A stretch of DNA of 64,000 nt. Source: Nocardioides sp. BP30 (GTDB taxonomy: Bacteria; Actinomycetota; Actinomycetes; Propionibacteriales; Nocardioidaceae). The stretch spans positions 4,092,001-4,156,000 of the forward strand of contig NZ_CP123620.1 in assembly GCF_029873215.1 (NCBI RefSeq). The letters are read 5' to 3'. The notes under the pieces are model-generated. The model was not told the origin of the DNA. It saw nothing but the letters and a program-made list of their open reading frames with translations, and did not search any database. Shown piece after piece: positions 27,383-54,769 of the stretch (within the stretch, counting starts at the first letter, position 1; each line of letters opens with the position of its first letter). Position numbers and translations under genes: made by a program.

Positions 27383-27844
27383 TCAGCGCGCGAGCACTAC
27401 CACGATCAGGGCGATCAGCGCTACCAGCGTCGCCCCACCGACCAGCCACCAGTACCAGTCGATCCCGGCCGGCTCGGGCACCGGCTCGGGGGCGGGTGGC
27501 GGTGGCGCGGCGACGACGGTGATCGGCTCGGGTGCCGTCACCAACACCATCGGACCTCCACAGCGCAGGCAGGTCTCGGCACCGACCGGGTTGGCCTCGG
27601 CGCAGGTCGGGCACGGGATCGAGGCGACGGTCACCCGGCCGGCGGTCCCGGGCAGGCGCCTCAGGTTCTCGCCGCTGCCCTGGCCACCGTCGCGGATGAC
27701 CTCCGACGGCGTCCAGAACAGCGGGAAGTCGCACTTCTCGCAGAAGTCGTGGGACTCGCGCCGGTTCAGCGCGACCTGCGCCGGCGTACCGCACTCGGGG
27801 CAGGCCACCGCCGCCCGCTGGTCCGCCTGCTGCTCGCTGGTCAT
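27383..27844 (-). CDS. Double zinc-ribbon, C-terminally anchored membrane protein
   Basis: The product is 153 aa with four CxxC pairs: C15/C18 with C35/C38, and C78/C81 with C92/C95, i.e. two zinc ribbons. A Pro-rich stretch (PPPPAPEPVPEP) leads to one TM helix at about residues 131-151 with almost nothing after it, so it is tail-anchored with the ribbons in the cytosol. The start overlaps the upstream tail-protein gene by 4 bp, making it the last member of the CIS operon. It could tether assembled CIS or its baseplate to the membrane; this is inference from topology and position only. Confidence 0.75.
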   Translation of the reverse strand: MTSEQQADQRAAVACPECGTPAQVALNRRESHDFCEKCDFPLFWTPSEVIRDGGQGSGENLRRLPGTAGRVTVASIPCPTCAEANPVGAETCLRCGGPMVLVTAPEPITVVAAPPPPAPEPVPEPAGIDWYWWLVGGATLVALIALIVVVLAR

Positions 27845-28452
27845 GCCTTCCTCCCGTACGCCGACCCGTGCGAGCCGGCATCCTCCCCTGATCGCCAGAC
27901 CAGCTCGTCGCCCACATAGAGCTCGGCGCGCGCGTGCGCCGGCACCTCGTCACGGATCCGCTCGACGAACTCGGCCACCGCGAGCTGGCCGGTGGAGGCC
28001 ACCCGCAGCCGGACCCAGGCGGTGTCGGCCGGTGCCTCACCGCTGCGCCAGATGCCGCCGCCGTCCTCGACCTCGGCCGGACCGTCGCTGAGCAGCTCGA
28101 GGAACTCGCGCAGGCCGTGCGCTGTGCCGCGCCAGGTCAGCGTGCGAGCGGCACTGCGCACCATCCGGCGCTGCAGTTCCTCGGGCAGCGCCTCGTCGAT
28201 CGGCGCGGCCGAGATCCACGATCCCAACCACCGCACCAGCTCCGGCGGAGCGACGGTGACGTCGAGGATGTGGTCGATGTTGTCGGCATCCTCCAGCAGC
28301 GTCGTACCGAGCTCCTGGAAGATCGAGACGAACCTGCGGAAGAAGTCGTGCGCGACCATCTGGACCGGCAGCTGGTGCACCATCCAGTCCGGGTCCCGGC
28401 GCGGCCGCAGCTGCCCGCTCGGCTGCTGTGGGATGTAGGGGGCGAGCGTCAT
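27841..28452 (-). CDS. CIS baseplate protein, phage tail protein I-like
   Basis: The product is 203 aa. The segment MVAHDFFRRFVSIFQELGTT, the PPELVRWLGSWI block and LPEELQRRMVRSAARTLTWR-GTAHGLREFLEL are typical of tail protein I (P2 gpI-like) proteins of contractile injection systems, which sit at the outer wedge of the baseplate. ATG at 28452 overlaps the baseplate J gene by 4 bp; the longer frame upstream lies inside that gene and is a shadow. It is followed by the zinc-ribbon gene. Function by family and operon position. Confidence 0.85.
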   Translation of the reverse strand: MTLAPYIPQQPSGQLRPRRDPDWMVHQLPVQMVAHDFFRRFVSIFQELGTTLLEDADNIDHILDVTVAPPELVRWLGSWISAAPIDEALPEELQRRMVRSAARTLTWRGTAHGLREFLELLSDGPAEVEDGGGIWRSGEAPADTAWVRLRVASTGQLAVAEFVERIRDEVPAHARAELYVGDELVWRSGEDAGSHGSAYGRKA

Positions 28453-30398
28453 CGCACGACCACCCGGTGCGCCGCGGAGAGGAACAGCGACTGCCGGTCG
28501 AGCCGGATGACGTCCCGGGCCGCCCCGAGCCGGCGACCGGTGCGCAGGTCGAACTCGTAGAGCAGCACCTCCTCGACGCGCTCGACCCCCTCGACCGACT
28601 CCAGCAGCTGGGTGACCGTCGCGGCGTTCACGTCGGCGTCGAAGGGCCAGCCGGTGCCGTCGGCACCGCCGATGAGCGGGTTCAGGTAGCGGTCCAGCGC
28701 GTCCACGGCGCGCTGCTGCACCAACGCCGGTGGGCGGCCGGGGTCGCCGTGCACCAGCGCCACGACCGAGACGCCCTGGTAGTACGGCGTGCTCACCTCG
28801 ATCGCCGTGCCCACGATCCGGTGCTGGTCCAGATGCGCGGTGATGGTCTCCATCAGCGACGGCGAGATCGCGTAGTCGTCGAGGTGATGCTCGCCGACCT
28901 CGCGCCGGACCTGCGGGACGACGAGGAGCTGGACGTGCGCGTTGCCGGGACCGGCCGCCTGGCACCGCGCTCGGGCGACCTCGGGCGATGCCTCGAGCGT
29001 CAGCCGCTCGAAGTCGCCCACCGTCACCGCGCGCTGCCCGGTGCGCAGGGTCAGCGGACCGCGCTCCTTGGCCTCGGCGACGGTCTCGGCGTCCACGCCG
29101 CCACTCGCCCGGCCGAGGTTGGAGACGGCGTTCACGAACGGCACGGTCGTGCGCATCAGGGTCAGGGTCCGGGCCCCGACGTTGCCACGCACGCCGCCAC
29201 CGTGCCGGTAGCCGCTGACCTCGATCCGAGCGCTGTCGCGCGGGATGGCGCCGTGCTGGCGCACGGTGCCGTCGGCGTAGCGCACCCGCGGCCCGAAGCG
29301 GACGATGCCCGACCCGCCGTCCCAGACATAGACCCGGTCGTCGGGACCGGCCAGCGAGAAGTCCTCCACCTCGCGCCAGATCGTCTCCTGGTCGCCGTCG
29401 CGGACGAGCACGTGCTCACCGGTACGACGCGGCAGCACGGGCGTGCGCGAGACCACGAAGCTCTGGCCCGGCGTACCGTCGCTGCGGCCGATGACCTCGC
29501 CGGGCAGCTGCTCGGCATGCTCGGCCAGCACGGTGCCACCCAGCGCCTCGACGCTGAGGCCGCGGACCCGCGGCGAGGCCTGGTACGTCGGCTGGCCCGG
29601 CAGCGGCGCGAGCAGCCGGGCACGCAGCCAGTACGCGGCCTGGTTGCCGACAGTGGACGGCGCGTGCTCCACCGGGACGAGCAGCACGATCTCGCCGGCC
29701 CGGTTGAGGCCGCCGGTGGAGTCCTGGTGGACGGTGCAGCCGATCCAGCCCCCGCCGTTCCAGACCTCCCAGGCCAGCGGCGGCCGGTTGGGGTCGACGC
29801 CGATGCCCTCGGCCTGGGCCTCGACCACCAGCCGGATCACCATCCCGGCCAGGCTGTCGTGGAAGCCGAGGCAGAGCGCGTCGCCGGGACTCAGCTGCGG
29901 CGAGGCGAACGCACGCACGCCCTCGGTGCCGAAGCGCAGGTCCTCCCACACGTTGTCGACGGTGCCGGCGACCTGGACGGTCTGCGCGGCCTCGAGCACC
30001 GGCGGGGCGATCACCAGCTCCTCGGTGGTGCTGAAGACCACCGCGTCGGCGCCGTCGGCGGCGCTCGCCGCCGTCATCACCTGGGTGTTGGCCGGCACGA
30101 CCACGGGAGCCTCGAGCACGGCGGAGAGCCAGAACGTCAGGTCCGCACGTGCGACCGACGGCGGGAACGGCTCGATCCCGACCATGTTGAGGAAGTGGGT
30201 GTAGAGCCGCTCGGGGACCTGGTTGACCCGATAGAGCACCATCTCGCTCATCCAGGCGAACAGCTCGATCAGCGCCACGCCGGGGTCGGAGACGTTGTGG
30301 TTGGTCCATTCCGGGGCGTAGCGCGGGATCAGCCGCTTCGCCTCGTCGACGATGCTCTGGAAGGTCCGGTCGTCGAGGCCGGGAGTGGGGAGAGGCAT
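28449..30398 (-). CDS. CIS baseplate assembly protein, gpJ/Afp11-like
   Basis: The product is 649 aa. It starts PLPTPGLDDRTFQSIVDEAK, then IPRYAPEWTNHNVSDPGVAL-IELFAWMSEMVLYRVNQVPE, the hallmark of the putative baseplate assembly family of Afp/PVC-type systems. The middle beta-rich part (ADGTVRQHGAIP) and C-terminal part (NAATVTQLLESVEGVERVEE) match gpJ-like wedge proteins. In the assembled particle such proteins form the wedge ring that links spike hub, sheath and fibres. It is separated from the gp25 gene by 4 bp and overlaps the tail protein I gene. Confidence 0.92.
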   Translation of the reverse strand: MPLPTPGLDDRTFQSIVDEAKRLIPRYAPEWTNHNVSDPGVALIELFAWMSEMVLYRVNQVPERLYTHFLNMVGIEPFPPSVARADLTFWLSAVLEAPVVVPANTQVMTAASAADGADAVVFSTTEELVIAPPVLEAAQTVQVAGTVDNVWEDLRFGTEGVRAFASPQLSPGDALCLGFHDSLAGMVIRLVVEAQAEGIGVDPNRPPLAWEVWNGGGWIGCTVHQDSTGGLNRAGEIVLLVPVEHAPSTVGNQAAYWLRARLLAPLPGQPTYQASPRVRGLSVEALGGTVLAEHAEQLPGEVIGRSDGTPGQSFVVSRTPVLPRRTGEHVLVRDGDQETIWREVEDFSLAGPDDRVYVWDGGSGIVRFGPRVRYADGTVRQHGAIPRDSARIEVSGYRHGGGVRGNVGARTLTLMRTTVPFVNAVSNLGRASGGVDAETVAEAKERGPLTLRTGQRAVTVGDFERLTLEASPEVARARCQAAGPGNAHVQLLVVPQVRREVGEHHLDDYAISPSLMETITAHLDQHRIVGTAIEVSTPYYQGVSVVALVHGDPGRPPALVQQRAVDALDRYLNPLIGGADGTGWPFDADVNAATVTQLLESVEGVERVEEVLLYEFDLRTGRRLGAARDVIRLDRQSLFLSAAHRVVVR

Positions 30399-30402: not shown

Positions 30403-30882
30403 TCACTCTTCGCTGTCGTGGGGGATCAGGTAGAACGGGTAGACCAGGTTGCGCCGGTCATTGGTGGCTCGGATCCGGTAGGCGATGCCGATCCGCACCA
30501 GGGCCGGTTCGTCCTGGTCGGGCACGGGCACTACCTCGTCCACCTCGACCCGGGGCTCCCACTGGGCGATCGCCTGGCGCACCGACACGGCGATCTGACC
30601 CAGCAGGTTCGGCGTCACCGGCTCGAAGAGCAGGTCCCAGATCCGGCAGCCGAACTGCGGGCGCATCAGCCGCTCCCCCGGTGCCGTCATCAGCACCAGC
30701 TCGATCGACCGGTCCAGGTCCGCGACCGGATCCGAGAGCCGGATCGAGCCGGTGTGGTCCACGCCGAGCGGCCAGGCGAAGCCGCTACCCAGGAAGGAGG
30801 GGTCGGTACCGGCCGGCACCCTCGGGTCGCGCTGGCCGGTGACACGGGCCGGCAGCCGGCCCTCGTGCGGTCCACTGGTCAA
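30403..30882 (-). CDS. CIS baseplate gp25/GPW-like protein
   Basis: The product is 159 aa. The core (SFLGSGFAWPLGVDHTGSIR, RDPxxD-like segment, SIELVLMTAPGERLMRPQFG, CRIWDLLFEPVTPN) is the gp25-like lysozyme-related fold found in all contractile tails; it binds the sheath's first ring. TTG at 30882 overlaps the stop of the VgrG gene (TTGA) and is the best available start; a GTG further in is possible. Family assignment is secure, the exact N-terminus is not. Confidence 0.88.
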   Translation of the reverse strand: MTSGPHEGRLPARVTGQRDPRVPAGTDPSFLGSGFAWPLGVDHTGSIRLSDPVADLDRSIELVLMTAPGERLMRPQFGCRIWDLLFEPVTPNLLGQIAVSVRQAIAQWEPRVEVDEVVPVPDQDEPALVRIGIAYRIRATNDRRNLVYPFYLIPHDSEE

Positions 30883-32642
30883 TTGATCATCACCACCGCA
30901 CCCTTGAGGGCGAGCTGGGCGCCGGCCTGGACCGTCGTGTTCGCCTGCCCGTCGATCTTGACCTCCGCGCCCTGCACGTCCACCCCGGTCTTGCCGGCCA
31001 CCGAGGCCTTGGTACCCGCCTGCGCGTCGAGCGTGGTGTCCGCCTTGAGCGTGATGCTCTTGCCCTGGATCGTGATGTCGCCCTGCTCGGAGAAGACGAT
31101 CTTGGCAGCGCCGTTGGTGATCGTGAGCTCCTTGTTGGCGATCGTCAGATCGGTCTTGTCCGCTCCGATCCGCAGCTGGTGCTGGCCGCCGGCCAGCTTG
31201 ACCAGCACGTACTTGCTGTCCTCGGAGGTGCCGTCGGCCAGCTCGATCACGTGGCCCAGCCGCGAGGTGATCCGGCGGTAGGCGATGCTGGAGCCGTCCA
31301 CGTTGCCCGCCTTGGGCGAGGTCGGCAGGGTGTTCTTCGCGCTGAAGAGTCCCCCGAGCACCAGCGGCCGCCGGGTGTCGCCCTGCTCGAAGGCGACCAG
31401 CACCTCGTCGTTGACCTCGGGCTGGAACTCCAGCCCACGGCCCTTGCCGGCGCCGATCGTGACGACCCTCGCCCACGGCGACTCCACGGTGCTGCCCTGG
31501 GTCGCGTAGGTGACCTTGACCTTGCCCGCGTTGTCCGGGTCGGCGACGTTGGTGACGACACCGGTGATCACGCCCGGAAGGGTGAAGCCACTCCCGTCGA
31601 CGGGGACGCCGAGGACGTCGACCAGGTGCCGCGGCCGGTGCGGGCCCGCGGTGAAGCGGGTGGTGAAGCCGCTGATGTCGTAGACGTGCTCGATCGCCGT
31701 GACCAGGTACTTGCCCGAAGCCGGACCGGCGTCGCTGACGTTGACGGTCGTCGCCAGGGCGATGGCCGGGTTGAAGTCGCCCGTGCCCCGTGCCACGACA
31801 CCGTCGGAGGCGGCGGCCGCGAAGATCGAGGAGGCCATCGCGGTCGCCTCGTCGGCGTCCATCGGCGCCGCGTCGCGGACCACCAACGTCTTCGCTCCGC
31901 CGTTGAGGTCACTGAGGAAGGGGTCCACCAGGTCGCCCTTCGACTTCGTCGACGGGGTGGCGGAGTCACCGGTGATCATCTGCTGTTGCGCCGGGTCCCA
32001 GCCCACGACCTGGACCTTGTCCGGCCGCAGGCTGGTGGCCTTGACCGAGAACCCGTCCAGGTCCTTGCCGAAGACGAGCGCGACGGTGGTGTCCGACGTA
32101 CCGGCCTTCTCGAAGCGGAGCGTGCTCGCGCCCTCGACCCACCAGACCCGGCCGGTGCGCGCGCAGATCTCGTTGAGGAAGTCCAGGTCGGTGCCCGACT
32201 GCAGCAGGTAGGGATGGGTGGCGCTCTCCGGCTGGGCGCTGCTGGCCGAGAGGCCGTGCGCGCGCAGGACGTCGCCGACGACGGTGCTCACGCTGCTGTT
32301 GAGGTAGGTCTTGGTGGTGGTGCCGTGGGCCAGCTTGTGTGCGGCGTCGTCGACGGTCACCACGAGCTCGGGCTGGCGGCTCTCCCCCTGGTCGAGCGAG
32401 ATGCCCACCACGGTGCCGGTGAAGACAGGGCTCGCGGCCCCGGCCCTGCCCACCGTGACCGACTTCTCGAGCGTGAACAGCGACGCCTGCGCCAGGGCCG
32501 CTCCGAAGTCGCGGAAGCGCAGCGTGGCCCGGCCGACCAGGCCTACCTGCAGGTCGATGCGGACGCCGACCAGCCGGTCCAGCCAGACGGCTGCGAGGTC
32601 CTGTCCACCGACCTTGATCTCGGGGGCGAGGGTGATGGTCAT
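30879..32642 (-). CDS. VgrG-like spike/hub protein of the CIS
   Basis: The product is 587 aa. N-terminal gp27-like hub (HYPYLLQSG-type segment THPYLLQSGTDLDFLNEICA with RTGRVWWVEG), a central gp5-type OB-fold (GVITGVVTNVADPDNAGKVK; ESPWARVVTIGAGKGRGLEF-QPEVNDEVLVAFEQGDTRRP), then a beta-helix needle of repeated strands (ADKTDLTIANKELTITNGAA; DITIQGKSITLKADTTLDAQ). It trimerises as the puncturing spike under the tube. It overlaps genes on both sides by 4 bp. No extra effector domain is fused at the C-terminus, which ends KGAVVMIN. Confidence 0.93.
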   Translation of the reverse strand: MTITLAPEIKVGGQDLAAVWLDRLVGVRIDLQVGLVGRATLRFRDFGAALAQASLFTLEKSVTVGRAGAASPVFTGTVVGISLDQGESRQPELVVTVDDAAHKLAHGTTTKTYLNSSVSTVVGDVLRAHGLSASSAQPESATHPYLLQSGTDLDFLNEICARTGRVWWVEGASTLRFEKAGTSDTTVALVFGKDLDGFSVKATSLRPDKVQVVGWDPAQQQMITGDSATPSTKSKGDLVDPFLSDLNGGAKTLVVRDAAPMDADEATAMASSIFAAAASDGVVARGTGDFNPAIALATTVNVSDAGPASGKYLVTAIEHVYDISGFTTRFTAGPHRPRHLVDVLGVPVDGSGFTLPGVITGVVTNVADPDNAGKVKVTYATQGSTVESPWARVVTIGAGKGRGLEFQPEVNDEVLVAFEQGDTRRPLVLGGLFSAKNTLPTSPKAGNVDGSSIAYRRITSRLGHVIELADGTSEDSKYVLVKLAGGQHQLRIGADKTDLTIANKELTITNGAAKIVFSEQGDITIQGKSITLKADTTLDAQAGTKASVAGKTGVDVQGAEVKIDGQANTTVQAGAQLALKGAVVMIN

Positions 32643-33295
32643 GCCGAGCCCAGCCGCGGGATGGAGAGGACGGTGCCCGGCCGTACGGCGAGGGGGTCCT
32701 CGAGGCCGTTGGCCGAGGCCAGCGCCCGCCACTTGGTGGCGTCGCCGTAGTAGCGCGCGCTGATCCGGTCGAGGGTCTCCCCCGGCTGGACGCGGTGCAC
32801 CCGGTGCGGCCGAGGCGTGCCGGAGGTGGGGTTCTGCGGCCCGAAGGCGTCCGACTGCTGGTACTGCATGAGGGTCAGGCTCATGTCGGCACGCAGCGGC
32901 GTACCGCTCTCGGAGAAGTAGGTGAACGTGAGGCTGAGCGAGGTGATGACCGACTCGAAGCTCTGCAGGTTGCCCCAGCCGAAGGTGACGGTCCGCGGGC
33001 GGGCGTTGTTGCTGGTCTCGTCCGACCCGGCCAGGCTCGGGTCCGGCTCCATCAGCGCCAGGATCTTGCCGGTGTAGTTGGTGACCGGCACGCCCTCCAG
33101 CGTGGTGTCGAACTTCAGCTCCAGCGACATCGACGCGGACTCGGTGCCGTTGAACTGCGCCGTCGAGACGCCCTTGCCCGGCATCGAGGGCGCGCTCCAG
33201 CTGTTGCGGCGGCTCAGCGAGAGCTGCTCGGGGTTGTAGAGGCACGGGATCTGGGTGCCGCCCTCGATCTGCAGGTAGGCCTTGGCGAGACTCAT
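32639..33295 (-). CDS. CIS hub/tube-baseplate protein with C-terminal LysM domain
   Basis: The product is 218 aa. Residues 1-150 match the Afp7/gp53-like CIS family (KAYLQIEGGTQIPCLYNPEQ; SMSLELKFDTT; PRTVTFGWGNLQSFESVITS), and residues about 165-215 form a LysM module (HRVQPGETLDRISARYYGDA-TKWRALA). In contractile systems this type of protein connects the hub to the baseplate. It overlaps the VgrG gene. The name LysM here does not mean that it binds peptidoglycan. Confidence 0.9.
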   Translation of the reverse strand: MSLAKAYLQIEGGTQIPCLYNPEQLSLSRRNSWSAPSMPGKGVSTAQFNGTESASMSLELKFDTTLEGVPVTNYTGKILALMEPDPSLAGSDETSNNARPRTVTFGWGNLQSFESVITSLSLTFTYFSESGTPLRADMSLTLMQYQQSDAFGPQNPTSGTPRPHRVHRVQPGETLDRISARYYGDATKWRALASANGLEDPLAVRPGTVLSIPRLGSA

Positions 33296-33365
33296 CGGCG
33301 TACTCGCTTCGCTCCGCGCACCGATGAGGGGTCACCGAGGCTGTGTCGACTGGTTCGCTCGCTCA

Positions 33366-33854
33366 CTAGAAACCGCCCCTTCCGGAGCGGCGACCGCGCC
33401 GCTCGAGTTCGTCGACGACACGCTGCTCGATCCGGTCGACCACGGCGGCGATCACCTCGTCGAGCTGCTGGGGATCCAGCGAGCCGGAGGCGGGTACGGC
33501 GGGTCCGGCCTGCCCGGCCGCCGCCTGCGCCGGGTAGATGACCGACGCCAGCGCCGCGGCGTCCACCGCGCCGCCAGCAGCGGAGAAGCCGCCTGCCGCG
33601 CCGGCGGCGCCACCGGCGGGTCGGGTGGCGGCGGGCGAGCTGAACAGGTGCGCTGTCCGCTCGAGGAACGAACCCCCGGTCGGCTTCTGCGCCGTCCCGG
33701 ACTGCGTCGCGTTCGGCTCCTGGCGCTGGCCCTTCCCGCCGCGGAACGGGAAACGCCGTACCGGCTCGGGGAGGTTGCCGTCCTGCGAGGCCGAGGCAGG
33801 CGGCAGCGGCATCACCGGTGGCCGGGGCCGACCCTCCGGAACGTGACTCGACAT
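33366..33854 (-). CDS. Possible internal start: C-terminal 162-aa product of the disordered gene
   Basis: ATG at 33854 (MSSHVPEGRPRPPVMPLPPA) is preceded by CAGGAGGGAGGGCGCC, a far better ribosome-binding site than that of the long frame at 36704. No stop separates it from the upstream coding sequence, so it is either an in-frame internal start or the trace of two once-separate genes now fused. The 162-aa product would carry one (V/L)RR island, an Ala/Gly linker and the terminal amphipathic helix. Confidence 0.45.
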   Translation of the reverse strand: MSSHVPEGRPRPPVMPLPPASASQDGNLPEPVRRFPFRGGKGQRQEPNATQSGTAQKPTGGSFLERTAHLFSSPAATRPAGGAAGAAGGFSAAGGAVDAAALASVIYPAQAAAGQAGPAVPASGSLDPQQLDEVIAAVVDRIEQRVVDELERRGRRSGRGGF

Positions 33855-36744: not shown

Positions 36745-37251
36745 CTAGGCGGTGGCGGGCTTGGCGGAGACGAAGCCGTGGTGGGCGATCTCGAGCTCCT
36801 CCTGGAGCGGGTCGTCCCGGCTGACATCGAAGTCCGGGCCCTTCCAGCGCACCGGCCACACGTCGTTGAAGTTCCACGAGCGCAGCCGGCTGCCGTCCAG
36901 ACCTATCACCGTCACGGCCCCGGTCGACTTCGTCAGCTTGTTGCCCGACGCGGCGAACCCCTCGCCGGAGCTCTTCTGCAGCCAGGCGAACAGGGCGTCA
37001 CTGTCGGTGACGCCGCGCCGGAAGATCAGGTTCGGCCACGTCACCCGGCCGGGCAGCTTGTGGCTGAAGCCGTTCTGGCCGCCCTCGAGGATCTGATAGG
37101 TCTCCACCGTCATCTCCAGGCCGGAGACGGAGGAGAAGACGCCGATCTCGGCGCCGTCGAGCTCGAACAGGAAGCGGCTGGCCGTGGCCAGGTCCGAGCC
37201 CAGCAGGTTCTGTGCGGCCGGCGACGCGGCCGACGAGGGGGTGATGCTCAT
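36745..37251 (-). CDS. CIS tube-type protein (gp19 family), second copy
   Basis: The product is 168 aa of the T4 gp19-like tail tube family: ATASRFLFELDGAEIGVFSS-VSGLEM, LPGRVTWPNLIFRRGVTDSD, LFAWLQKS and a final beta-strand pair (PLQEELEIAHHGFVSA). It differs from the main tube protein at 37951, being longer by 10 residues with different surface loops. In Afp/PVC systems such extra tube proteins form the first tube rings above the spike. Position 40 bp before the disordered gene and after the DUF6760 gene fits an initiator role. Confidence 0.9.
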   Translation of the reverse strand: MSITPSSAASPAAQNLLGSDLATASRFLFELDGAEIGVFSSVSGLEMTVETYQILEGGQNGFSHKLPGRVTWPNLIFRRGVTDSDALFAWLQKSSGEGFAASGNKLTKSTGAVTVIGLDGSRLRSWNFNDVWPVRWKGPDFDVSRDDPLQEELEIAHHGFVSAKPATA

Positions 37252-37262: not shown

Positions 37263-37439
37263 TCAGGCACCGAACTCACGGACCGACTGCCAGGCCCGCT
37301 CGTTGAGGTTCACCACGGCGCGCACCATCCGCACCCGGTCCATGTGCTCGAGGTCGAGCAGGTCGTCCATGGACCAGTGCAGGTGGTAGGCGAGGAAGGC
37401 GATCTCCTGCCACAGCGCGTCGGTGGGGTAGCGCAGCAT
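37263..37439 (-). CDS. DUF6760-type small CIS protein
   Basis: This 58-aa frame starts at ATG 37439: MLRYPTDALWQEIAFLAYHL, then HWSMDDLLDLEHMDRVRMV and a C-terminal NERAWQSVREFGA. It matches the small conserved protein found beside tube genes in CIS and phage-tail-like loci. It starts 3 nt below the stop of the tail assembly gene and ends 11 nt before the second tube gene. It resembles a gpG/gpGT-type assembly partner in size and position; that is inference. The 4-gene spacing and codon usage make it a real gene. Confidence 0.85.
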   Translation of the reverse strand: MLRYPTDALWQEIAFLAYHLHWSMDDLLDLEHMDRVRMVRAVVNLNERAWQSVREFGA

Positions 37440-46510: not shown

Positions 46511-49500
46511 GTCGCAGCGTCCCACCGAGTCGGCCCCCGGCGTCGCCGTCGCACCTGTGGTGCGCACCGGTGCCGGGGTGCCGCTGGCGGTCGAGGTGAC
46601 GGTCGCCAACACCGCCGCCTCCGCACGCCAGCTGACGGTGATGGCGCTCGGCGTCGACTCCGCCTGGCTGCCCGCTCCGGTGACGACGCCGCTGCTCGCA
46701 CCGGGAGCGACGTACGTCGTCCAGCTGACCCTGATCCCCGCGGCCGGGACCCTGCCGGCGCAGTACCCCCTCGCGATCAGCGTGCAGGCACTCGGCCCCG
46801 GCGGGGCGGCGAGCTCCGCTCCGCTCGGGATCGCCGACACCGTCCTGGTGGTCAACCCGCGTGCCCAGCTCACCTTGGAGATGGACCCGCCGGCGCTGAC
46901 CGCGTGGCGCTCGCGGCGGTTCGCGGTGGTGCTGCGCAACAGCGGCGGCGCCCTCGCACGGGTGCGGCTGACACCGCAGACGACGGGCTCGGTCCGGCTG
47001 AGCCTGCAGCAGGAGGACGTCGAGGTCGCACCCGGCGCGGTGGTCCGCGTCCGCGGGCGGGCGACGGCACGGCACCCGCAGCTGATGGGCATGCGGATGC
47101 GCCACGTCCTGCGGATCGGCGCCACCGGCACGGAGGCGGCCCGGTACGCCGAGGGCGAGCTGACCCAGCGTCCGCTGGTGCCGCCGTTCTGGCTGAAGTT
47201 CATCGCCGTGGTCGGCATCCTGGCGATCTGGATCGCCGCCGGCATCACCTTCCTGCCCAAGCTCACCGACCACTTCGGCTCGAAGTCCGACGTGGTGAGC
47301 ACCCAGGCCGACCCCGCCTCCGGTGGCTCGGGCTCGGGCGGCTCGGGCTCGGGTGGCTCCGGCTCGGGCGGCTCCGGCGGCTCGGGTTCCGGCGGCTCGG
47401 GCGGCTCGGGCGGCTCGGGCTCGGGCGGCTCGGGCTCGGGCGGATCCGCCACCCAGGCCACCGGCGGCACGACTGCCTCCGCCGGCTCCGGCGTCCAGCT
47501 CAACGGCACCATCAAGGCCGAGAACCCCTCCGGCGTGCACGTCTCGCTGCGCCCGACCTCGCTCGTCGACGAGGACGCCGAGCTCGGCGGCACCAAGTCC
47601 GTCGGCGTACCGGTGTCCCTGACGGCGTCGGTCGGCAAGGTCTCCTCCGAGACGATCACGCTCAGCAAGGCCACCAAGATCCCGCAGCAGCGTGGGACGG
47701 TGACCGGCACCGACGGCGTCTGGTCCTTCCCCAAGGTCAGCTCGCCGGGCTACTACCTGCTCGTCTTCAGCAAGCCGGGCTACCAGAGCCGCAGCTACGT
47801 CGTGGACGCGTCCTCGGCCACCGCCCAGAAGCCCCTCGACGTCGAGCTCGAGCCCGGGGAGGGCAAGCTGTCGGGGGTCGTCACGGGCCCGGACGGCAAG
47901 GCGGTCGGCGGCGCTGCGATCAGCATCAGCGACGGCACCAGCACGATCACCGCGAGCAGCAACACCAAGGGCCACGTCGGCGCCTGGTCGGTCAACGGTC
48001 TCTCCACCCCCGGTAGCTACATCGTCTCGGCCTCGGCCGACGGCGACAGCACCGAGGCCCGCGACGTCACCCTGGCGGCCGGCGGCACCGCCACCGCGAA
48101 CCTGCGCCTGCGCAACGGCGTCGCCACCCTGAGTGGCAAGGTCTCCGCGACCGGCTCCGACGGTGTGATCAAGGGCGTGGGCGGCGCCACCGTCACCGTG
48201 ACGGACGGCGCCGGCACCGTGCGCACGGCCACCACCGTGACCCAGGACCAGCTCGCCGGGACCTACCACGTGCCGGCGCTCCCGGCACCGGGCGACTACA
48301 CCGTCACCCTGACCGGTCCGGACCTGCAGACCCAGACCAGCCGGCTGCATCTGAAGGGCGGTCAGGGCTCGGCCACGCTCGACGCCACGCTGCCCTCGGC
48401 GAGCGGCATCGTGCAGGGCATCGTCACCGACAGCGCCGGCGGCGCGCTGACCAGCGCCGGCCTGGTCCTCTCCAACGCCGACCACACCTACAAGACGACC
48501 AGCACCAGCGGCACGACGACCGACCAGGCCGGGTCGTTCCAGATCACCGGCGTCACGCCGGGCACCTACACCCTGACCACCCAGCTGTTCGCCTACCAGG
48601 GCAGCACGCTGACGGTGGGCGTCACCGCCGGCGGCGTCACCTCGGTCTCGCCGTCGCTGACCAAGCAGGCCGGCGGCGTCCTGCCGACGACCGGTGTCAT
48701 CCTCGGCTCGGCCGTCGACGCCGCGACCGGCAAGTCGATCGGCACGTGCCCCGCGGCGGCAGCGCCCGGCACCGCGACCACGAGCACCTCGACGACGACC
48801 TCGAGCAGCGGCGACACCAGCACCGTCACCACCTCGACCGACCCGGCCCTGTGCCTGACGGCCACCGTCACCGAGGATGCGGCGGCCGACCAGGGCAGCG
48901 GCACCTCCACCTACACCGTGCCGTTCGGCGCCGACGAGCAGTACCGGCTGCCCGGCAAGGCCGCCGACGGCACCACGCTGGGCCTGCGGCCGGGCCTCTA
49001 CACCGTCCGGATCAGTGCGCCGGGCTATGAGTTCACCTCCGTCACCGTCCAGGTGCCGATGGGCACGACGGTGACCGCGCCGGTCGCCCAGCTGCTGCGC
49101 GCCCCGACCGTGCAGGGCACCGTCGGCACCAGCGCGACGACGAACCCGAAGGGCGAGACGTGCGTCTTCGCCGTACCCGACGGGTCCTCCCTCACCCAGA
49201 CGTGTGCGGCAGCGATCGGCAACACCTGCAAGGCCACGCCCGTGGGCTACAGCGGCTCGGCGGCGCTCGGCACCGTCTGCGCGTACGTCGACGGCACCGG
49301 CTCCTACAGCCTGCAGCTGCCCAAGCACGGCGTCTACACCGTGTACGTCGTCCCGAAGGACCCGGAGTTCCTGACCACCTCGGCGACCTTCTCGATGGAC
49401 GCCGGGACGACGCAGGTCTACGACCCGCACCTCGACCGGCTCGGCCACCTCGACGTGACGGTGCTCAAGCCGGGCACGAACGGCGACCTGGTCGCGGCCA

Positions 49501-52500
49501 GCAGCGGTACCCAGATCACCATCACCCCGCTCAACGCCGACGGCAGCCCCGACAGCGCCGACGCGGTGACGGCGATCGTCGACGACACCGGTCAGGCCCA
49601 CCGGACCAAGCTCGCCGCCGGCTCCTACGAGGTCGAGGCGACCGACGCGGTCGATCATCAGTACACGAACTCGCTGCCGACCTCCGTCTCGCTCAACCAC
49701 GACACCTCGCTGACCCTGCCGCTGACCAACCCGGTCGGCTCGGTGGTCGGGAAGGTGAGCGCGGCGTACGACGGCTCCTCGCAGCCGGTCAAGAACGCGA
49801 AGGTCTCGATCAGCGCACCGGTCAGCTACAACGGCACCACGGCGGTGCGCGGTGTAGCCGAGCCGGTGACGGGCGGCGACGGCTGCTTCGGCATCCAGTC
49901 CGGGGCGACAGTGCCGACCTCGCCGTGCGGGGGGACGACCTGGGCCTCGGGAGCGCTCGTCGACAAGTCGTTCGTCTCCACCTCGGCCAACATCACCATC
50001 ACCGCGCCCGGCTACCAGAGCCAGACGCTGTCCAACCAGGCCCTGCTCACCGGAGGCTCCAGCAACACCTTCACGCTGGTACCGAACCCGGTCCGGTTCG
50101 CCGCCACCATGACGGTGCTGCCGACCTCGGCCAACCCGTGGAACTCGGTGTCCTTCCAGGTCAGTGCCACCGGTGCCAGCACGAGCGGCATCAGCGTCTC
50201 GGCCAGCGCCGGCGGCACCGCGGGCACCGGCGTGCTGGCCTGGACCGACACCACGCTGAACTCCGGCGGCGTCTCGACCCCCGGCCTCATCCGGCCCGGC
50301 ACCTACACGATCACCGCGACGGCTCCCGGGTACCAGACAGCCACCGGCACGCTGAAGTGCGTCGTCGACGACGGCACCGACTCCGCGACGAACTGCAGCT
50401 GGGCCACCCCGCTGCAGCTCAAGCAGAACGCCGCCCTGACCATCGGCGCGGTGCAGGCCGACGGCACAGCGATCGCGGGGGCGACGTACACGCTCAGGGA
50501 CAGCGTCGCCGGGACCTCCAGCACGGTGACTCCCGCCAGCACCACCGCGAGCTTCTCCGGGCTCTCCCCCGACCCCGACGGAGGCCGCTACACGGTGACC
50601 ATCAAGGCCGCCGGGTACCACTTCGGCACCGCCGGCACGGCCTCCGGCCTGCCCCTGACGTGCTCGAGCGACGCGGCAGTGCCCGCCACGCTGCTCCTGC
50701 CCGCCGGGGCGGCGTCGTCCTGCAAGGCGACGCTCACCGCGGCGCCGACCATCGCCGGCACCGCCATGGGCTTCACCACCGCCGACACCACCCCGACAGG
50801 TGACAAGATCTCGCTGACCGGTGCGACGGTGCATGCCGTGCACTGCACCGGCACCGGCAGCGACCAGAAGGTCGCCTGCCAGAGCACCGACGCGGACCTG
50901 ACCGGCACCGTGAGCTCCGCCGGGGCGTACACGATCACGGGCTCGGCCACCGCCGAGCTGGCCACCGGCCTGTACAAGGTCAGCGTCGCGGTGCCCGGCT
51001 GGACCGGCAACGGCGGCGTCGCCTACGTCACCGTCAGCGGCGACACCGAGACCGACGCCGATCTCACGCTCACCCAGATCCCCGTCACCGTCACCGTCAC
51101 CCTGCCCGACCAGGTGGGCGACAACATCGCCGACGCGACGCTGGTGCTGACCAACAGCGCAGGCGACGCGCTGCCGACCCCGACGGTCTCGGCGGGCGGC
51201 ACCTACACCTTCACGAACGTGCTGCCGGGGACCTACACCTACGACGTGACCGGCGAGTCCATCCTGCACGGGTTCGGCACGCTGCCGTCGGTGGTGCTCA
51301 ACACCAACGCGGCGTCCGCCAGCCAGGCCTTCAAGATCCCCGTCACCCTCGGCGCGAGCTCGCTGGGCGGCACCGTGGTGGACCGCAACGGCGCCAAGAT
51401 CGCCAACGCCGCCGTCGTGCTCTGCCCGAGCGATGCCACCGCTGTCTGCACGCCCGGCAACGGGACCGACAAGAAGCCGCTGAGCGCGACCGCGGACGGC
51501 AACGGCGCCTACGCCCTCCGGAACGTCCCCAACGGGACCTACACCGTCTGGGCGTCGGCGTACGGCTTCACCACCGCCAGCGCGTCCTCGACCTACTCGG
51601 TGGACTACCGCAACGTCGCCTACACGATCCCGATCACCCTGCCCGTGATCACCCAGGCGGTCTCGCTGACCCTGAAGCCGAGCGCCGGCGCGAGCGACAG
51701 CCTCACCGGGACCAGCGTCACCCTCACCGGCGCGGGCCGCAACGCCGGCCAGACCCTCACACCCACCTCCGCGACCGGAGGGACCGCCTCGTTCGACCAG
51801 GTGCCGTTCGGCTGCTGGACGGCGAGCTGGACGTTGCCGTCGTACCACTTCGGCACGATCGCCACCCCGACCACCACCGGCGGCGACAGCACGCTGGGGT
51901 GCACGACCGGCACCGTCTCGGTCTCGGGGGCGGCGACGAACACGCCCGCCTCCGCGACCTACAACCTGACCGAGACCGGCACGGCCGTGAGTGCGAGGCT
52001 GGGCAGCTACTGGACCGGCACCTCGCACCCGTCGACGGCCCTGGTCACCCTGACCCAGAGCGGTACGTCGAAGACGACCTTCGACCTCACCCTCGGCAGC
52101 GGCTCCACCACGGTGTGGGTGCCGAGCGGGTCCTGGTCGGTCAGCGCCGCGGGCGACGACGTCGACAGCGGCTGGTGGCCCGCGGTCTCGAAGGCCGTCA
52201 CCGGCAGCAGCCTCAGCCTCACGCTGACCCAGGCGCGCAAGCCGGTCGACCTCTCGGTCACCAATGGCACGACGCACACCACCATCACGATCACCGACGG
52301 CGCCGGCCTGACGCTGGACACCGATGTCTCGCTCGACAGCGACGGCACGGCCTCCTTCAGCCTGCCGCCGGGCACCTGGACGATCGCGGCATCGCGCAGC
52401 GGCTACGACGACGACAGCACGACCGTCACCTTCGACGACGACAGCGACCCGTCGACCACCGCCTCGGTCGACCTGACGCTGACCAAGACCGCTCCCCCGC

Positions 52501-52607
52501 CCTCGACCTCGCCCAGCGCCTCCGCGGATCCCTCCTCCGCCCCCTCCACCGACCCGTCCGCAGGAACCTCGAACGCCTCTGACCCGAGCGACACCACCAC
52601 CCCCTGA
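46503..52607 (+). CDS. Giant bitopic Ig-like/carboxypeptidase-regulatory-like repeat protein 3
   Basis: The product is 2034 aa. TTG at 46503 overlaps the previous stop. Layout: cytosolic Ig-like domains (VTVANTAASARQLTVMALGV; RFAVVLRNSGGALARVRL), QRPLVPPFW at about 221, a TM helix (FIAVVGILAIWIAAGITFL), a (GGSGSG)n tether of about 45 residues, then some 1650 residues of exported beta-sandwich repeats with endings such as GTYTLTTQLFAY, GSYIVSASADG and GTWTIAASRSG. The C-terminus is a Ser/Pro/Thr-rich tail without LPxTG anchor. If stacked, the repeats could span the cell wall. Third gene of the divergent CIS-linked operon. Function unknown. Confidence 0.82.
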   Translation: MAESQRPTESAPGVAVAPVVRTGAGVPLAVEVTVANTAASARQLTVMALGVDSAWLPAPVTTPLLAPGATYVVQLTLIPAAGTLPAQYPLAISVQALGPGGAASSAPLGIADTVLVVNPRAQLTLEMDPPALTAWRSRRFAVVLRNSGGALARVRLTPQTTGSVRLSLQQEDVEVAPGAVVRVRGRATARHPQLMGMRMRHVLRIGATGTEAARYAEGELTQRPLVPPFWLKFIAVVGILAIWIAAGITFLPKLTDHFGSKSDVVSTQADPASGGSGSGGSGSGGSGSGGSGGSGSGGSGGSGGSGSGGSGSGGSATQATGGTTASAGSGVQLNGTIKAENPSGVHVSLRPTSLVDEDAELGGTKSVGVPVSLTASVGKVSSETITLSKATKIPQQRGTVTGTDGVWSFPKVSSPGYYLLVFSKPGYQSRSYVVDASSATAQKPLDVELEPGEGKLSGVVTGPDGKAVGGAAISISDGTSTITASSNTKGHVGAWSVNGLSTPGSYIVSASADGDSTEARDVTLAAGGTATANLRLRNGVATLSGKVSATGSDGVIKGVGGATVTVTDGAGTVRTATTVTQDQLAGTYHVPALPAPGDYTVTLTGPDLQTQTSRLHLKGGQGSATLDATLPSASGIVQGIVTDSAGGALTSAGLVLSNADHTYKTTSTSGTTTDQAGSFQITGVTPGTYTLTTQLFAYQGSTLTVGVTAGGVTSVSPSLTKQAGGVLPTTGVILGSAVDAATGKSIGTCPAAAAPGTATTSTSTTTSSSGDTSTVTTSTDPALCLTATVTEDAAADQGSGTSTYTVPFGADEQYRLPGKAADGTTLGLRPGLYTVRISAPGYEFTSVTVQVPMGTTVTAPVAQLLRAPTVQGTVGTSATTNPKGETCVFAVPDGSSLTQTCAAAIGNTCKATPVGYSGSAALGTVCAYVDGTGSYSLQLPKHGVYTVYVVPKDPEFLTTSATFSMDAGTTQVYDPHLDRLGHLDVTVLKPGTNGDLVAASSGTQITITPLNADGSPDSADAVTAIVDDTGQAHRTKLAAGSYEVEATDAVDHQYTNSLPTSVSLNHDTSLTLPLTNPVGSVVGKVSAAYDGSSQPVKNAKVSISAPVSYNGTTAVRGVAEPVTGGDGCFGIQSGATVPTSPCGGTTWASGALVDKSFVSTSANITITAPGYQSQTLSNQALLTGGSSNTFTLVPNPVRFAATMTVLPTSANPWNSVSFQVSATGASTSGISVSASAGGTAGTGVLAWTDTTLNSGGVSTPGLIRPGTYTITATAPGYQTATGTLKCVVDDGTDSATNCSWATPLQLKQNAALTIGAVQADGTAIAGATYTLRDSVAGTSSTVTPASTTASFSGLSPDPDGGRYTVTIKAAGYHFGTAGTASGLPLTCSSDAAVPATLLLPAGAASSCKATLTAAPTIAGTAMGFTTADTTPTGDKISLTGATVHAVHCTGTGSDQKVACQSTDADLTGTVSSAGAYTITGSATAELATGLYKVSVAVPGWTGNGGVAYVTVSGDTETDADLTLTQIPVTVTVTLPDQVGDNIADATLVLTNSAGDALPTPTVSAGGTYTFTNVLPGTYTYDVTGESILHGFGTLPSVVLNTNAASASQAFKIPVTLGASSLGGTVVDRNGAKIANAAVVLCPSDATAVCTPGNGTDKKPLSATADGNGAYALRNVPNGTYTVWASAYGFTTASASSTYSVDYRNVAYTIPITLPVITQAVSLTLKPSAGASDSLTGTSVTLTGAGRNAGQTLTPTSATGGTASFDQVPFGCWTASWTLPSYHFGTIATPTTTGGDSTLGCTTGTVSVSGAATNTPASATYNLTETGTAVSARLGSYWTGTSHPSTALVTLTQSGTSKTTFDLTLGSGSTTVWVPSGSWSVSAAGDDVDSGWWPAVSKAVTGSSLSLTLTQARKPVDLSVTNGTTHTTITITDGAGLTLDTDVSLDSDGTASFSLPPGTWTIAASRSGYDDDSTTVTFDDDSDPSTTASVDLTLTKTAPPPSTSPSASADPSSAPSTDPSAGTSNASDPSDTTTP
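47323..47452 (+). repeat. Gly-Ser tether repeat
   Basis: In-frame repeats of GGCTCGGGC / GGCGGCTCC encode a (GGSGSG)n linker of about 45 residues directly outside the TM helix of giant gene 3. Confidence 0.9.
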
Positions 52608-52612
52608 CGCGT

Positions 52613-52932: not shown

Positions 52933-52958
52933 ACTGATCTCTCTCGGTGGTGGTCTCC

Positions 52959-54188
52959 ATGCATCAGATCCAGGCGGCACTCGCCACGATCGCTGCTGCC
53001 CTCGATGACGCCACGGACGCGGACCCGGTCTTCCTCGCGACGGCGGACAAGGCAGACGTGCTCGCACGACTGGAGCAGATCACCGCACGTGTGGCCGAGC
53101 TACGACTCCGCGTGATCGCCTCCGCACAGGACGTGGCCGAGGAGGTCAGTGCCCGCGATGTCGCAGCCTGGCTGGTTGCCCAGCACCGGGTCGAGAGTCC
53201 CGCCGCGTACGCCACCCTTCGGTTGGCCCGGGAGTTGGAGGGTCGGCCGGTGGTCCGGGCCGGGCTCGCGCGCGGTGCGTTCAGTCTCGAGCACGCCCGC
53301 GTGATCCTCCGTGGGCTCGACGACCTGCCCGACGACCTACCCGCCGAGGTGTTGGCGCGGGCGGAGGTCACGCTGTGCGACCTCGCGAGTGAGCACCGGC
53401 CCAAGGACCTGCGCCGCCTCGCCAGCCACCTGTTGGAGGTCGTCGCACCCGAGGTCGCCGAAGCCGCCGAGGCCGCAGCCATCCGTCGGCTCGAGGAGAC
53501 CGCGAACGCGAAAGCGTGCCTCTCGATCACCGACCAAGGCGACGGGACGACCCGCATCCACGGCATCGTCCCCGAAACGGTCGGTCACCGGTTGCGGACC
53601 TACCTGCAGGCCTACACCCAACCCCGCATCGCCGCCCTGGAATCCGACGGCAGGGTCCAGCCCCGCAGCCGGCTCCTCGCCCACGCCTTCGCCCAACTCC
53701 TGGAGAACACCGACCCCACCCGCCTCCCCGCCCACGGGGGTGATGCCACCACCGTCATCGTCACCATGACGCTGGACCAGCTGCGGGCCGGTCTCGGTGT
53801 CGCATGGCTCGACGACGGCACCCCCATCAGCACCGGGGAAACCCGACGCCTCGCGTGCACCGCGGGGATCATCCCCGCCGTCCTCGGCGGCAACTCCGAA
53901 CCCCTCGATCTGGGCCGCACCCGACGACTCTTCACCCCATCCCAGCGCAAGGCACTTGCGCTACGGGACAAGCACTGCCGCACCGAAGGCTGCACCGTCC
54001 CCACCGCCTGGTGCGACGCCCACCACGACCAACCCTGGTCAACCGGCGGCCACACCGACCTGAATCACGGCTCCCTCCTCTGCGGCCACCACCACAGACG
54101 CGCCCACGACCCCACCTACCAAACCACCCGACTACCCGACGGCCGCTACCGCTTCCATCACCGAACCCGAGACGTCCTGCGCCGGTGA
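52959..54188 (+). CDS. DUF222 domain HNH endonuclease (13E12 family)
   Basis: The product is 409 aa. The N-terminal DUF222 helical domain (ARLEQITARVAELRLRVIAS; ARELEGRPVVRAGLARGAFS-LEHARVI) is followed by an HNH nuclease motif: CRTEGCTVPTAWCDAHH with W..GG-TDLNHGSLLCGHHHRRAH. These genes, including the 13E12 repeats of M. tuberculosis, are multicopy and probably mobile or self-propagating. ATG 52959 is chosen; a GTG at 52947 is in frame. A LexA box directly upstream implies SOS control. It interrupts the CIS locus, between the giant genes and the DUF4255 gene, to which it runs convergently. Confidence 0.92.
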   Translation: MHQIQAALATIAAALDDATDADPVFLATADKADVLARLEQITARVAELRLRVIASAQDVAEEVSARDVAAWLVAQHRVESPAAYATLRLARELEGRPVVRAGLARGAFSLEHARVILRGLDDLPDDLPAEVLARAEVTLCDLASEHRPKDLRRLASHLLEVVAPEVAEAAEAAAIRRLEETANAKACLSITDQGDGTTRIHGIVPETVGHRLRTYLQAYTQPRIAALESDGRVQPRSRLLAHAFAQLLENTDPTRLPAHGGDATTVIVTMTLDQLRAGLGVAWLDDGTPISTGETRRLACTAGIIPAVLGGNSEPLDLGRTRRLFTPSQRKALALRDKHCRTEGCTVPTAWCDAHHDQPWSTGGHTDLNHGSLLCGHHHRRAHDPTYQTTRLPDGRYRFHHRTRDVLRR

Positions 54189-54199
54189 GACACCGCCGA

Positions 54200-54769
54200 T
54201 CAGCCGCGCGGCGGCGGGATCGGCGAGGGGTTGCTGAGCACCGAGATCTGCTCGACCGCGGGCGCCTGCAGCTCCCAGTCCCAGGTGTCGGTGGCCACGG
54301 TCGCGGTGATGAGCAGGCAGGGCCGCAGCTTGCCCCCGAGGCCCTGCCAGATGTCGCGCGGGCCGAGCTGCCCTCCGAGGGAGAGACTCACGGTGGAGTT
54401 CAGCCCCTCGGGTGCCACGCGCTCGGGCAGCGTCGGCGTACCCGCCAGGAGGCTGACCACGCTGCTCAGCAGCTGGTGCTCGTCGCGAGGGCTGCCGGCC
54501 CAGGCGCTGACCAGGTATCCGAGGTCGATCATCGGCTGCGGGCGTCGCTGGTAGGCGGGGCCGCCCTCGCTGCTGCGGACCACCGGAGCACGGCCGGGCT
54601 GGCTGCTGCGCTCGACCTGGTACAGGAAGAGGTTGACGGTCAAGCGCGAGAGGGTCGCGGCCCACGAGTCGTTGGGCGTCTCGAAGCTGATGTCGCCCAC
54701 GTGCTCCGGGAAGGGCAGCCCCTCCCGCAGGAGTCGCTCGAGACCCTGGTCGACCTCACTGATGAACAT
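54200..54769 (-). CDS. DUF4255 (Pvc16-type) CIS sheath/tube terminator
   Basis: The product is 189 aa. The N-terminus (ISEVDQGLERLLREGLPFPE; PNDSWAATLSRLTVNLFLYQ-VERSSQ) and the DLGYLVSAWAGSPRDEHQLL-SSVVSLL block are the Pvc16_N/DUF4255 family, which caps the distal end of tube and sheath in Afp/PVC-type particles. ATG 54769 has GGAGGTGCC upstream; the longer frame to 55153 is a shadow. It lies 13 kb from the rest of the CIS genes, beyond the giant genes and the HNH gene, yet belongs to the same machine. Confidence 0.9.
   Translation of the reverse strand: MFISEVDQGLERLLREGLPFPEHVGDISFETPNDSWAATLSRLTVNLFLYQVERSSQPGRAPVVRSSEGGPAYQRRPQPMIDLGYLVSAWAGSPRDEHQLLSSVVSLLAGTPTLPERVAPEGLNSTVSLSLGGQLGPRDIWQGLGGKLRPCLLITATVATDTWDWELQAPAVEQISVLSNPSPIPPPRG

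Follow-up and report, generated by a model that had tools for sequence, protein, structure and literature searches.

A 64,000-nucleotide stretch of the Nocardioides sp. BP30 chromosome (contig NZ_CP123620.1, forward-strand positions 4,092,001 to 4,156,000; hereafter the window) carries a gene cluster for a contractile injection system (CIS) at window positions 27383 to 54769. We infer, with a little better than even confidence, that this locus is the launcher half of a split, cytoplasmic-type CIS with membrane anchors, whose loader and cargo genes lie unlinked to it and whose components would dock through a short motif; the mechanism was deduced from sequence.

Pfam searches of the open reading frames (ORFs) between 23.8 and 60.8 kb (28 + 6 + 5 ORFs, in partly overlapping sets) confirmed every launcher part named in an earlier note on this DNA: sheath, major and minor tube, gp25, gpJ-type baseplate, tail protein I, VgrG spike, DUF4280 tip, LysM hub, and cap. 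Judged by its gene content, the launcher is a real, apparently intact CIS with a complete-looking operon (sheath, two tubes, hub, spike, tip, wedges, and cap). The locus consists of a 14-kb operon-like block on the minus strand and a divergent 11-kb block on the plus strand, with the cap displaced beyond both. In order of transcription, the minus-strand block reads Septum_form lipoprotein (SeptLP, 40613..41116), DUF4280/PAAR-like tip (40192..40584; DUF4280, 111 bits), sheath (38478..40052; Phage_sheath_1 and 1C), main tube protein (37951..38427; Phage_T4_gp19), a conserved 166-amino acid protein (37443..37943) with no family over the cut-off and tblastn homologues in most loci, a DUF6760 protein of 58 amino acids (37263..37439; 40 bits), and a second tube protein, the tube initiator (36745..37251; Phage_T4_gp19). 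It continues with an 1112-amino acid disordered protein (33366..36704), the hub (32639..33295; CIS_tube and LysM), a VgrG-like spike (30879..32642; Phage_base_V and Phage_GPD), a gp25-like baseplate protein (30403..30819; GPW_gp25), the Baseplate_J wedge (28449..30398), the Tail_P2_I wedge (27841..28452), and a zinc-ribbon protein with a C-terminal transmembrane helix (ZnRTM, 27383..27844). For the spike, the gp25-like protein, and the Tail_P2_I wedge, the families were matched on longer ORFs (30879-33335, 30403-31476, and 27841-28965), and the starts given are those of an in-house gene caller prone to missed or mis-started genes, which missed the window cap and several disordered-protein genes. 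In the Afp/Cis numbering, the tube initiator is Afp5/Cis1b-like, the hub Afp7-like, and the two wedges Afp11/Cis11-like and Afp12/Cis12-like.

Integrase, terminase, head, holin, lysis, fibre, tape-measure, and AAA+ families were not found among the scanned ORFs. A prophage or phage remnant was rejected because head, packaging, and integrase families were missing from these ORFs, in agreement with the earlier note, which had described a machine free of phage head, lysis, integrase, and packaging genes. Its description of a domesticated CIS akin to actinobacterial cytoplasmic CIS also held up, with neither fibre nor tape-measure match in the scanned ORFs and with conserved membrane partners.

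Relatives were collected by sheath, and the best 80 of 209 were kept. Among these, the nearest named relative was Nocardioides sp. Iso805N (96% identity), followed by nine other Nocardioides loci (84-89%), Cellulomonas (74-75%), and a Streptomyces-type set (45-51%). In the midpoint-rooted sheath tree of 81 tips, which contained no reference sequences of other subtypes, the window and 25 loci formed clade A (support 1.0), adjoined by locus L028; the remaining 54 tips formed the Streptomyces-type clade B, with clade A separate and beside it. Nocardioides caldifontis (L034) is a Nocardioides bearing a clade B system. Sheath and tubes are intact in Iso805N; the earlier note had named disruption of these genes in close relatives, combined with a lack of particles, as a refuting finding. 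The rest of the Iso805N operon lies on another contig; operon disruption was considered and rejected because the break is a scaffold gap and the remainder is intact on that contig. In the scaffold itself (L003, 15047-15102), a gap of 55 N coincides with the GC-rich disordered gene, and the sequence joined on there is unrelated; this looks like an assembly mis-join.

The sheath was the sole PF04984 match in the BP30 genome at E up to 0.001, and the Pvc16_N cap or tail terminator (54200..54769, minus strand; 99 bits) was the sole PF14065 match at E up to 1. The cap lies 13 kb upstream of the operon, past the plus-strand membrane genes. Because 9 of the 10 Nocardioides clade A loci read keep the cap between the first membrane gene and the lipoprotein, the window cap has probably moved. 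In a Phytoactinopolyspora locus (L223, 12599-18125), cap, AAA+, and eCIS_core protein adjoin, possibly an older arrangement.

Unlinked AAA+/eCIS_core modules and a clade-matched motif

The earlier note had reported neither AAA+ ATPase nor toxin and had used this absence to set the machine apart. The absence stands for the locus but not for the genome, in which a single eCIS_core (DUF4157) protein passes the Pfam cut-off and has the one strong Afp15-type AAA+ match as its neighbour near 1.10 Mb. As a distinguishing mark it fails, since the module is present elsewhere in the genome and adjoins the CIS in some other clade A species. The BP30 genome is a single contig of 4.28 Mb, and launcher and module are 3.0 Mb apart by contig coordinate, or ~1.25 Mb by the short way if the contig is circular. 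The module comprises the AAA+ protein (649 amino acids), the eCIS_core protein (190 amino acids), an 1110-amino acid cargo candidate without a Pfam match, and two small proteins. It recurs with 70-92% identity in the genome holding the Iso805N contig. Because Pvc15, the AAA+ of PVC, is described as loading cargo in the available text of PMC11495950, we regard these as putative loader/cargo modules. In BP30 (L119, 1-4843), the unlinked module sits downstream of genes that look like those for ribosomal proteins, secY, adk, and map, and its secY/adk-like neighbours are also present in L164.

The eight clade A genomes of the genus sample held 18 eCIS_core genes, one to five per genome. Only two of these were located within 15 kb of the launcher (in G077 and G014), and the other 16 were far away or on another contig. 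An AAA+ gene was directly beside 12 of the 18, a thirteenth shared its region with one, and all eight genomes held at least one AAA+/eCIS_core pair. In the five genomes with a single sheath, 5 of 7 eCIS_core genes were unlinked. Because most of these genes are unlinked, effector searches confined to the operon would miss most clade A cargo. The eCIS_core genes are followed in several loci by small YbjN-like proteins (L017 1762-2247, L125 2228-2758, L161 10520-11020, and L163 6301-6705; two by Pfam and two by similarity). It is possible that these are cargo chaperones; YbjN resembles type III secretion chaperones.

The disordered protein (33366..36704, minus strand) is encoded by an A/P/G/S/R-rich gene and was judged disordered from composition; it matched no Pfam family at E up to 1. 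It carries a net charge of +40 and 12 copies of the motif [VLI]RR, a number reached in 0 of 2000 composition shuffles. Eight further Nocardioides copies contained 5-21 motifs versus 0.7-1.6 expected, with the fragmentary or mis-called L003 and L009 proteins left out of the counts. Over ten clade A disordered proteins, V, L, or I preceded 139 of 207 RR runs, against 27.6 expected, and shuffles of 20-residue blocks agreed, weakly so for L005 and L006 (14 and 13 of 1000).

The proteins at the matching place in clade B carry [VLI]QR instead. Of loci L028-L082 (55), 45 had a suitable interval, and 43 of these beat all 300 shuffles; as for the other two, L032 was read in the wrong frame (its called protein was significant in the all-protein scan) and L069 has no such motif. 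For [VLI]RR, no clade B interval beat all 300 shuffles, the lowest value being 11/300 (L070 and L082). In a scan of all called proteins of these loci, clade A showed [VLI]RR enrichment only where the disordered protein is encoded, in 7 of the 272 Nocardioides proteins and 2 of the 153 others, and no enrichment of [VLI]QR. Clade B, to which L028 was assigned here despite its place beside clade A in the tree, gave 805 proteins; 23 were enriched in [VLI]QR, namely 18 disordered proteins and five with the eCIS_core AHExxH pattern, and none in [VLI]RR. The disordered proteins differ in charge as well: those of clade A are basic, with +40 in the window and a range of +22 to +55 over nine relatives; the twelve clade B proteins measured are acidic (-2 to -34).

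The same letter recurred in the eCIS_core proteins. Nineteen pooled clade A proteins contained 46 [VLI]RR versus 10.4 expected (33 versus 7.7 with the core domain masked) and 4 [VLI]QR versus 5.8, and 14 clade B proteins, chosen as in the all-protein scan by the AHExxH pattern and not by family scan, contained 52 [VLI]QR versus 2.1 and 0 [VLI]RR versus 3.1. The control of 173 neighbouring proteins gave observed/expected ratios of 1.35 and 1.44. When only the genomes with a single sheath match were considered, their seven eCIS_core proteins held 14 [VLI]RR versus 3.6 expected and 0 [VLI]QR versus 2.1. A second set consisted of 30 of 60 eCIS_core matches, one of them without HExxH, and was read from stop to stop, which added upstream residues. 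Its clade B part, which overlaps the first pooled clade B set, gave 35 [VLI]QR versus 2.9 and 14 [VLI]RR versus 10.1. In the same set [VLI]RR came to 27 versus 6.1 in clade A Nocardioides and to 27 versus 11.1 in Cellulomonas (there with 6 [VLI]QR versus 2.7); Kineosporia yielded 5 versus 1.2 and one Phytoactinopolyspora protein 4 versus 1.6.

We tentatively propose, at somewhat less than even confidence, that [VLI]RR/[VLI]QR is a docking tag that each machine lineage reads in its own letter, R in Nocardioides and Cellulomonas and Q in the Streptomyces type. The tag would be repeated ~4-22 times in a disordered scaffold or ruler and carried by eCIS_core cargo, and in the R clade one launcher would serve several unlinked AAA+/cargo modules and be tied to the membrane by zinc-ribbon and Ig-domain proteins. 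A search for the motif's receptor among clade-specific charge columns singled out none, many columns differing in most proteins. In clade A, several lysines are missing from tube 1, and both tube 2 and the sheath are more acidic; as a sign of a receptor, the tube charge shift is only suggestive.

Several findings weigh against this proposal and against a launcher served from a distance. The eCIS_core protein of BP30 itself has two [VLI]RR, one of them inside the core domain, and the 1110-amino acid cargo candidate has two versus 0.4 expected, which was not significant in the all-protein scan. With five copies each, the L005 and L006 disordered proteins fell below the Bonferroni cut of that scan, and near-identical protein pairs inflate the pooled motif counts. 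The R/Q switch follows one split of the sheath tree and is a single evolutionary event. Ten AAA-like controls showed ratios of 1.79 for RR and 5.06 for QR ([VLI]QR 12 versus 2.4); the QR excess is apparently a conserved LLQR stretch of the ATPase fold, and short-motif counts can thus rise for other reasons. With regard to the modules, three of the eight clade A genomes (G038, G065, and G098) have another, distant sheath match, which in G065 lies within ~30 kb of two eCIS_core genes; some modules there may serve a second machine.

The composition of the disordered gene, the single lineage split that accounts for the letter change, and the [VLI]QR excess of the AAA-like controls would all be expected if the [VLI][QR]R repeats were low-complexity drift in a GC-rich disordered gene. 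Such drift does not explain why V, L, or I so often precedes RR, an excess that block shuffles also failed to reproduce (weakly in L005 and L006), nor why the matching letter recurs in the eCIS_core proteins, and we hold it to be improbable.

Membrane proteins beside the launcher

The plus-strand block encodes three predicted membrane proteins, MP1 (41283..43667), MP2 (43664..46510; 948 amino acids), and MP3 (46503..52607; up to 2034 amino acids). They range from 794 to 2034 amino acids and are divergent from the minus-strand CIS operon. The earlier note had placed them in a co-oriented set of membrane and disordered proteins; this is correct for the disordered protein, ZnRTM, and the lipoprotein but not for MP1-3 (41283-52607). 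Minus-strand coding at 41-53 kb was rejected, because the long antisense ORFs tried had no Pfam family and the plus-strand frames matched CarboxypepD_reg strongly.

All three share one architecture, which was assigned by Pfam, hydropathy, and profile (with the gene caller for MP1 and a structure model for MP2): tandem PapD/ASH-like immunoglobulin (Ig) domains, a transmembrane helix (TM), and CarboxypepD_reg repeats. The N-terminal ~200 residues are conserved in each and lack an early hydrophobic stretch; a basic stretch and one TM come next, ahead of the repeats. The sole strong hydropathy peak comes after 215-267 residues and is preceded by basic residues, as read from a hydropathy scan and by eye. 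From this pattern the N terminus looks cytosolic, as in a plain N-in bitopic membrane protein. A model of MP2 residues 1-299, built from a 23-row alignment, had a mean pLDDT of 88 and contained two Ig domains followed by the TM helix. Its nearest Foldseek matches were CEP192 SPD-2, ciliary central-apparatus chains, and PapD-type pilus chaperones; the TM-scores of 0.21-0.42 in the rows shown are low, presumably because the joints between the two Ig domains and the helix are flexible. In a scan of ten family members, PASTA followed the TM in L034 and CBM_4_9, below the Pfam cut-off, in L047. PASTA and the weak carbohydrate-binding match after the TM suggest that the outer side of these proteins points to the cell wall.

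Full-length MP matches (at least 150 bits over at least 250 of 267 profile positions, with up to 17 candidates scored per genome) were found in 12 of 147 genus genomes, eight of clade A with three copies each and four of clade B with one each. These 12 were exactly the genomes whose sheath match was full-length and at least 47% identical; in the same search no full-length match appeared in 12 further genomes with other or partial sheath matches, and weak partial matches of 46 bits or less in 29 more genomes were left out of the counts. The profile also matched 17 of 17 further CIS genomes. Five of the 12 matching genus genomes and seven of the 17 further ones had supplied its rows, so that recall is partly circular, although the other 7 and 10 match too; the absence elsewhere is not circular. 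By these profile matches, MP1-3 are found with CIS and rarely without. All 10 Nocardioides clade A loci that were read have MP1 next to the sheath. In two Cellulomonas and one Phytoactinopolyspora, the whole set MP1-3 adjoins the launcher, and the third member measures ~1880-2030 amino acids by gene calls. Long repeat stalks and the divergent strand would suit surface adhesins that stand beside the CIS by chance. This we consider barely credible, given that full-length matches coincide with the clade A or B sheath in exactly 12 of 147 genomes and that MP1-3 stay next to the CIS in three genera despite rearranged gene order. All five Cellulomonas (G147:C1, G148:C2, G149:C1, G150:C1, and G151:C2) have a fourth MP-like gene that is apart from the clade A launcher and ~17-22 kb from an eCIS_core gene; it may mark a second CIS.

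Published work raises another role for these proteins. In the available text of Casu et al. (2023, PMC10066040), Sco4256-4258 of Streptomyces coelicolor are called effectors: their removal emptied most tubes, they were toxic in Escherichia coli, and the mutant behaved like a CIS deletion. If MP1-3 are homologues of Sco4256-4258, they may be cargo rather than anchors. They would then be packed in the tube and delivered, the Ig domains serving as loading part and the C-terminal repeats as payload. The architecture agrees with that of the published effectors, which as described in PMC10066040 and PMC10020575 are three proteins with a similar N terminus, one TM, and a variable C terminus, and the PapD-like first domain was seen in the MP2 model, too. 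Still, the C termini of MP1-3 span ~500-1800 amino acids and consist mostly of CarboxypepD_reg repeats, and two relatives have PASTA or a weak carbohydrate-binding match there, not catalytic domains. Moreover, a separate eCIS_core cargo system was present in all CIS genomes searched (8/8 and 17/17), and the topology resembles that of a plain N-in membrane protein. Delivery of MP1-3 as effectors is thus the main rival to the anchor reading and, in our estimate, a serious though rather unlikely one.

ZnRTM (27383..27844, minus strand) was recognized by Pfam DZR and a TM at residue 134, and it occupies the position of CisA. The window copy has four CxxC, and an alignment of eight Nocardioides copies showed that all keep two zinc ribbons, the sequence LRRLPGT, and the C-terminal TM. 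It directly follows Tail_P2_I in the window, in seven other Nocardioides copies read, and in two Cellulomonas; in Phytoactinopolyspora it was uncalled in L223, and a fragment begins at that place in L021. A longer protein with a long tail after the TM takes its place in the clade B Nocardioides G093 and G091. From its layout ZnRTM looks like a CisA core, without matching the full definition of CisA. That all eight copies end at the TM and so lack the outer C-terminal domain of CisA must be set against a CisA-like role. The last of the five conserved membrane-associated partners, SeptLP (minus strand), was identified by Pfam Septum_form and a lipobox-like VAAC, a pattern present in 10 of 12 copies checked.

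Proposed mechanism and surroundings of the locus

We suggest the following course for the anchored, split machine. The AAA+ would feed eCIS_core-tagged cargo into the growing tube. Since one short motif is common to the disordered protein and the eCIS_core proteins, both would probably bind a single lumenal or hub site through [VLI]RR; the disordered protein would be a multivalent scaffold for cargo, and it might also set particle length, for which CIS of this type have no ruler. That an eCIS_core protein co-elutes with the tube initiator is described in the accessible part of PMC13277306. Finished particles would float free in the cytoplasm, and ZnRTM, together with the Ig domains on the cytosolic side of MP1-3, would draw the baseplate to the inner surface of the membrane of the same cell, with the MP stalks extending into the wall or across it. 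A wall or stress signal could then fire the particle through the cell's own envelope, as for the Streptomyces cytoplasmic CIS (CISSc), in which CisA is needed for firing in situ according to the text available of PMC12237407.

A particle of the PVC/Afp kind, released by lysis and acting on other cells as an extracellular CIS (eCIS), would have the core genes and eCIS_core cargo in common with this system; its fibre gene could lie elsewhere or be replaced by the MP stalks, and carboxypeptidase-regulatory domains are reported in eCIS tail fibres in the accessible text of PMC12923769. Against release speak the scanned ORFs, free of fibre, tape-measure, and lysis families, and MP1-3, which are predicted membrane proteins conserved together with the launcher, and we judge it decidedly improbable.

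The CIS is flanked by ordinary chromosomal genes as identified by Pfam (a metal P-type ATPase with repressor, a cold-shock protein, and PntAB), and window GC content is 67-81% across 2-kb blocks. Directly downstream of the operon (23778-27277) are the heavy-metal P-type ATPase, a small neighbour, the metal-sensitive repressor, and the cold-shock gene, a group retained in L169. Between MP3 and the displaced cap lies a DUF222 protein (52947..54188, plus strand; Pfam DUF222), which is probably outside the CIS system; a DUF222 fragment is also found 3' of MP3 in the nearest relative (G049, L120). Seven relatives (L004, L007, L008, L009, L017, L020, and L027) have a reverse-strand gene for 329-365 amino acids between tip and sheath, absent from the window. 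These genes were rejected as effectors: the L008 copy, when family-scanned, proved to be a helix-turn-helix protein, four others read like it, and L009 and L027 were judged from their first residues alone. By eye we take the gene to be transposase-like, possibly a domesticated regulator.

Comparison with known systems

The Streptomyces cytoplasmic CIS (CISSc/SLP, subtype IId) resembles the Nocardioides system in its core set, cap, eCIS_core cargo, disordered protein near the second tube, and lack of a fibre or tape-measure match. The Nocardioides sheath, in contrast, is ~45-51% identical and falls in a separate clade, the AAA+ is unlinked with none in the gene cluster (scanned ORFs), and the locus has a DUF4280 tip plus a lipoprotein. 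Its disordered protein, encoded between tube 2 and hub, has a basic charge and the motif [VLI]RR in place of [VLI]QR.

The adjacent partners are not wholly of unknown kind, as the earlier note had supposed, since they match published descriptions of Sco4256-4258 and, in part, of CisA. Likened by description, MP1-3 and Sco4256-4258 have in common three proteins, a PapD-like N terminus, one TM, and a variable C terminus, and domain 1 of Sco4256 as given in the available text of PMC10020575 (PapD-like) agrees with the MP2 model. MP1-3 are, however, much longer, with CarboxypepD_reg stalks of up to ~1800 amino acids, and are divergent from the operon. CisA (Sco4242) likewise follows the last wedge gene and has a Cys-rich zinc-ribbon stretch ahead of a single TM; the accessible portions of PMC10020575 and PMC12237407 describe this Cys-rich stretch and a domain after the TM, whereas ZnRTM stops at the TM without an outer domain.

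In the open-access literature we found no report of CarboxypepD_reg stalks on CIS membrane proteins, of a CisA-like protein without the outer domain, of unlinked AAA+/cargo modules, of the clade-matched motif, or of the role of the disordered protein, and no paper on contractile injection in Nocardioides. The lipoprotein partner did not turn up in the open-access CIS literature, in which no search was aimed at it. How fibreless CIS reach the membrane, how cargo is chosen, and how length is set without a tape measure are left open in the Streptomyces work, as far as the available texts of PMC12237407 and PMC10066040 go. The membrane set, the unlinked loader/cargo module, and the clade-matched motif bear on membrane targeting, cargo choice, and length control.

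With PVC/Afp and AlgoCIS the window shares the launcher core. In the Afp5-6-7 gene order, tube initiator, plug, and hub follow one another, and by this numbering the disordered gene of clade A, which has the tube initiator on one side and the hub on the other, occupies the Afp6/Alg6 plug place. Alg6 is described as a small plug in the available text of PMC8894135, whereas the Nocardioides protein, likened to it by gene place alone, has ~1100 amino acids. Fibre, tape-measure, and lysis genes are lacking from the scanned ORFs, as is the PVC/Afp set of fibre, tape measure, adjacent AAA+, and toxin, and AAA+ and cargo are unlinked. The machine and both membrane families, Sco4256-4258-like and CisA-like, are known in kind.

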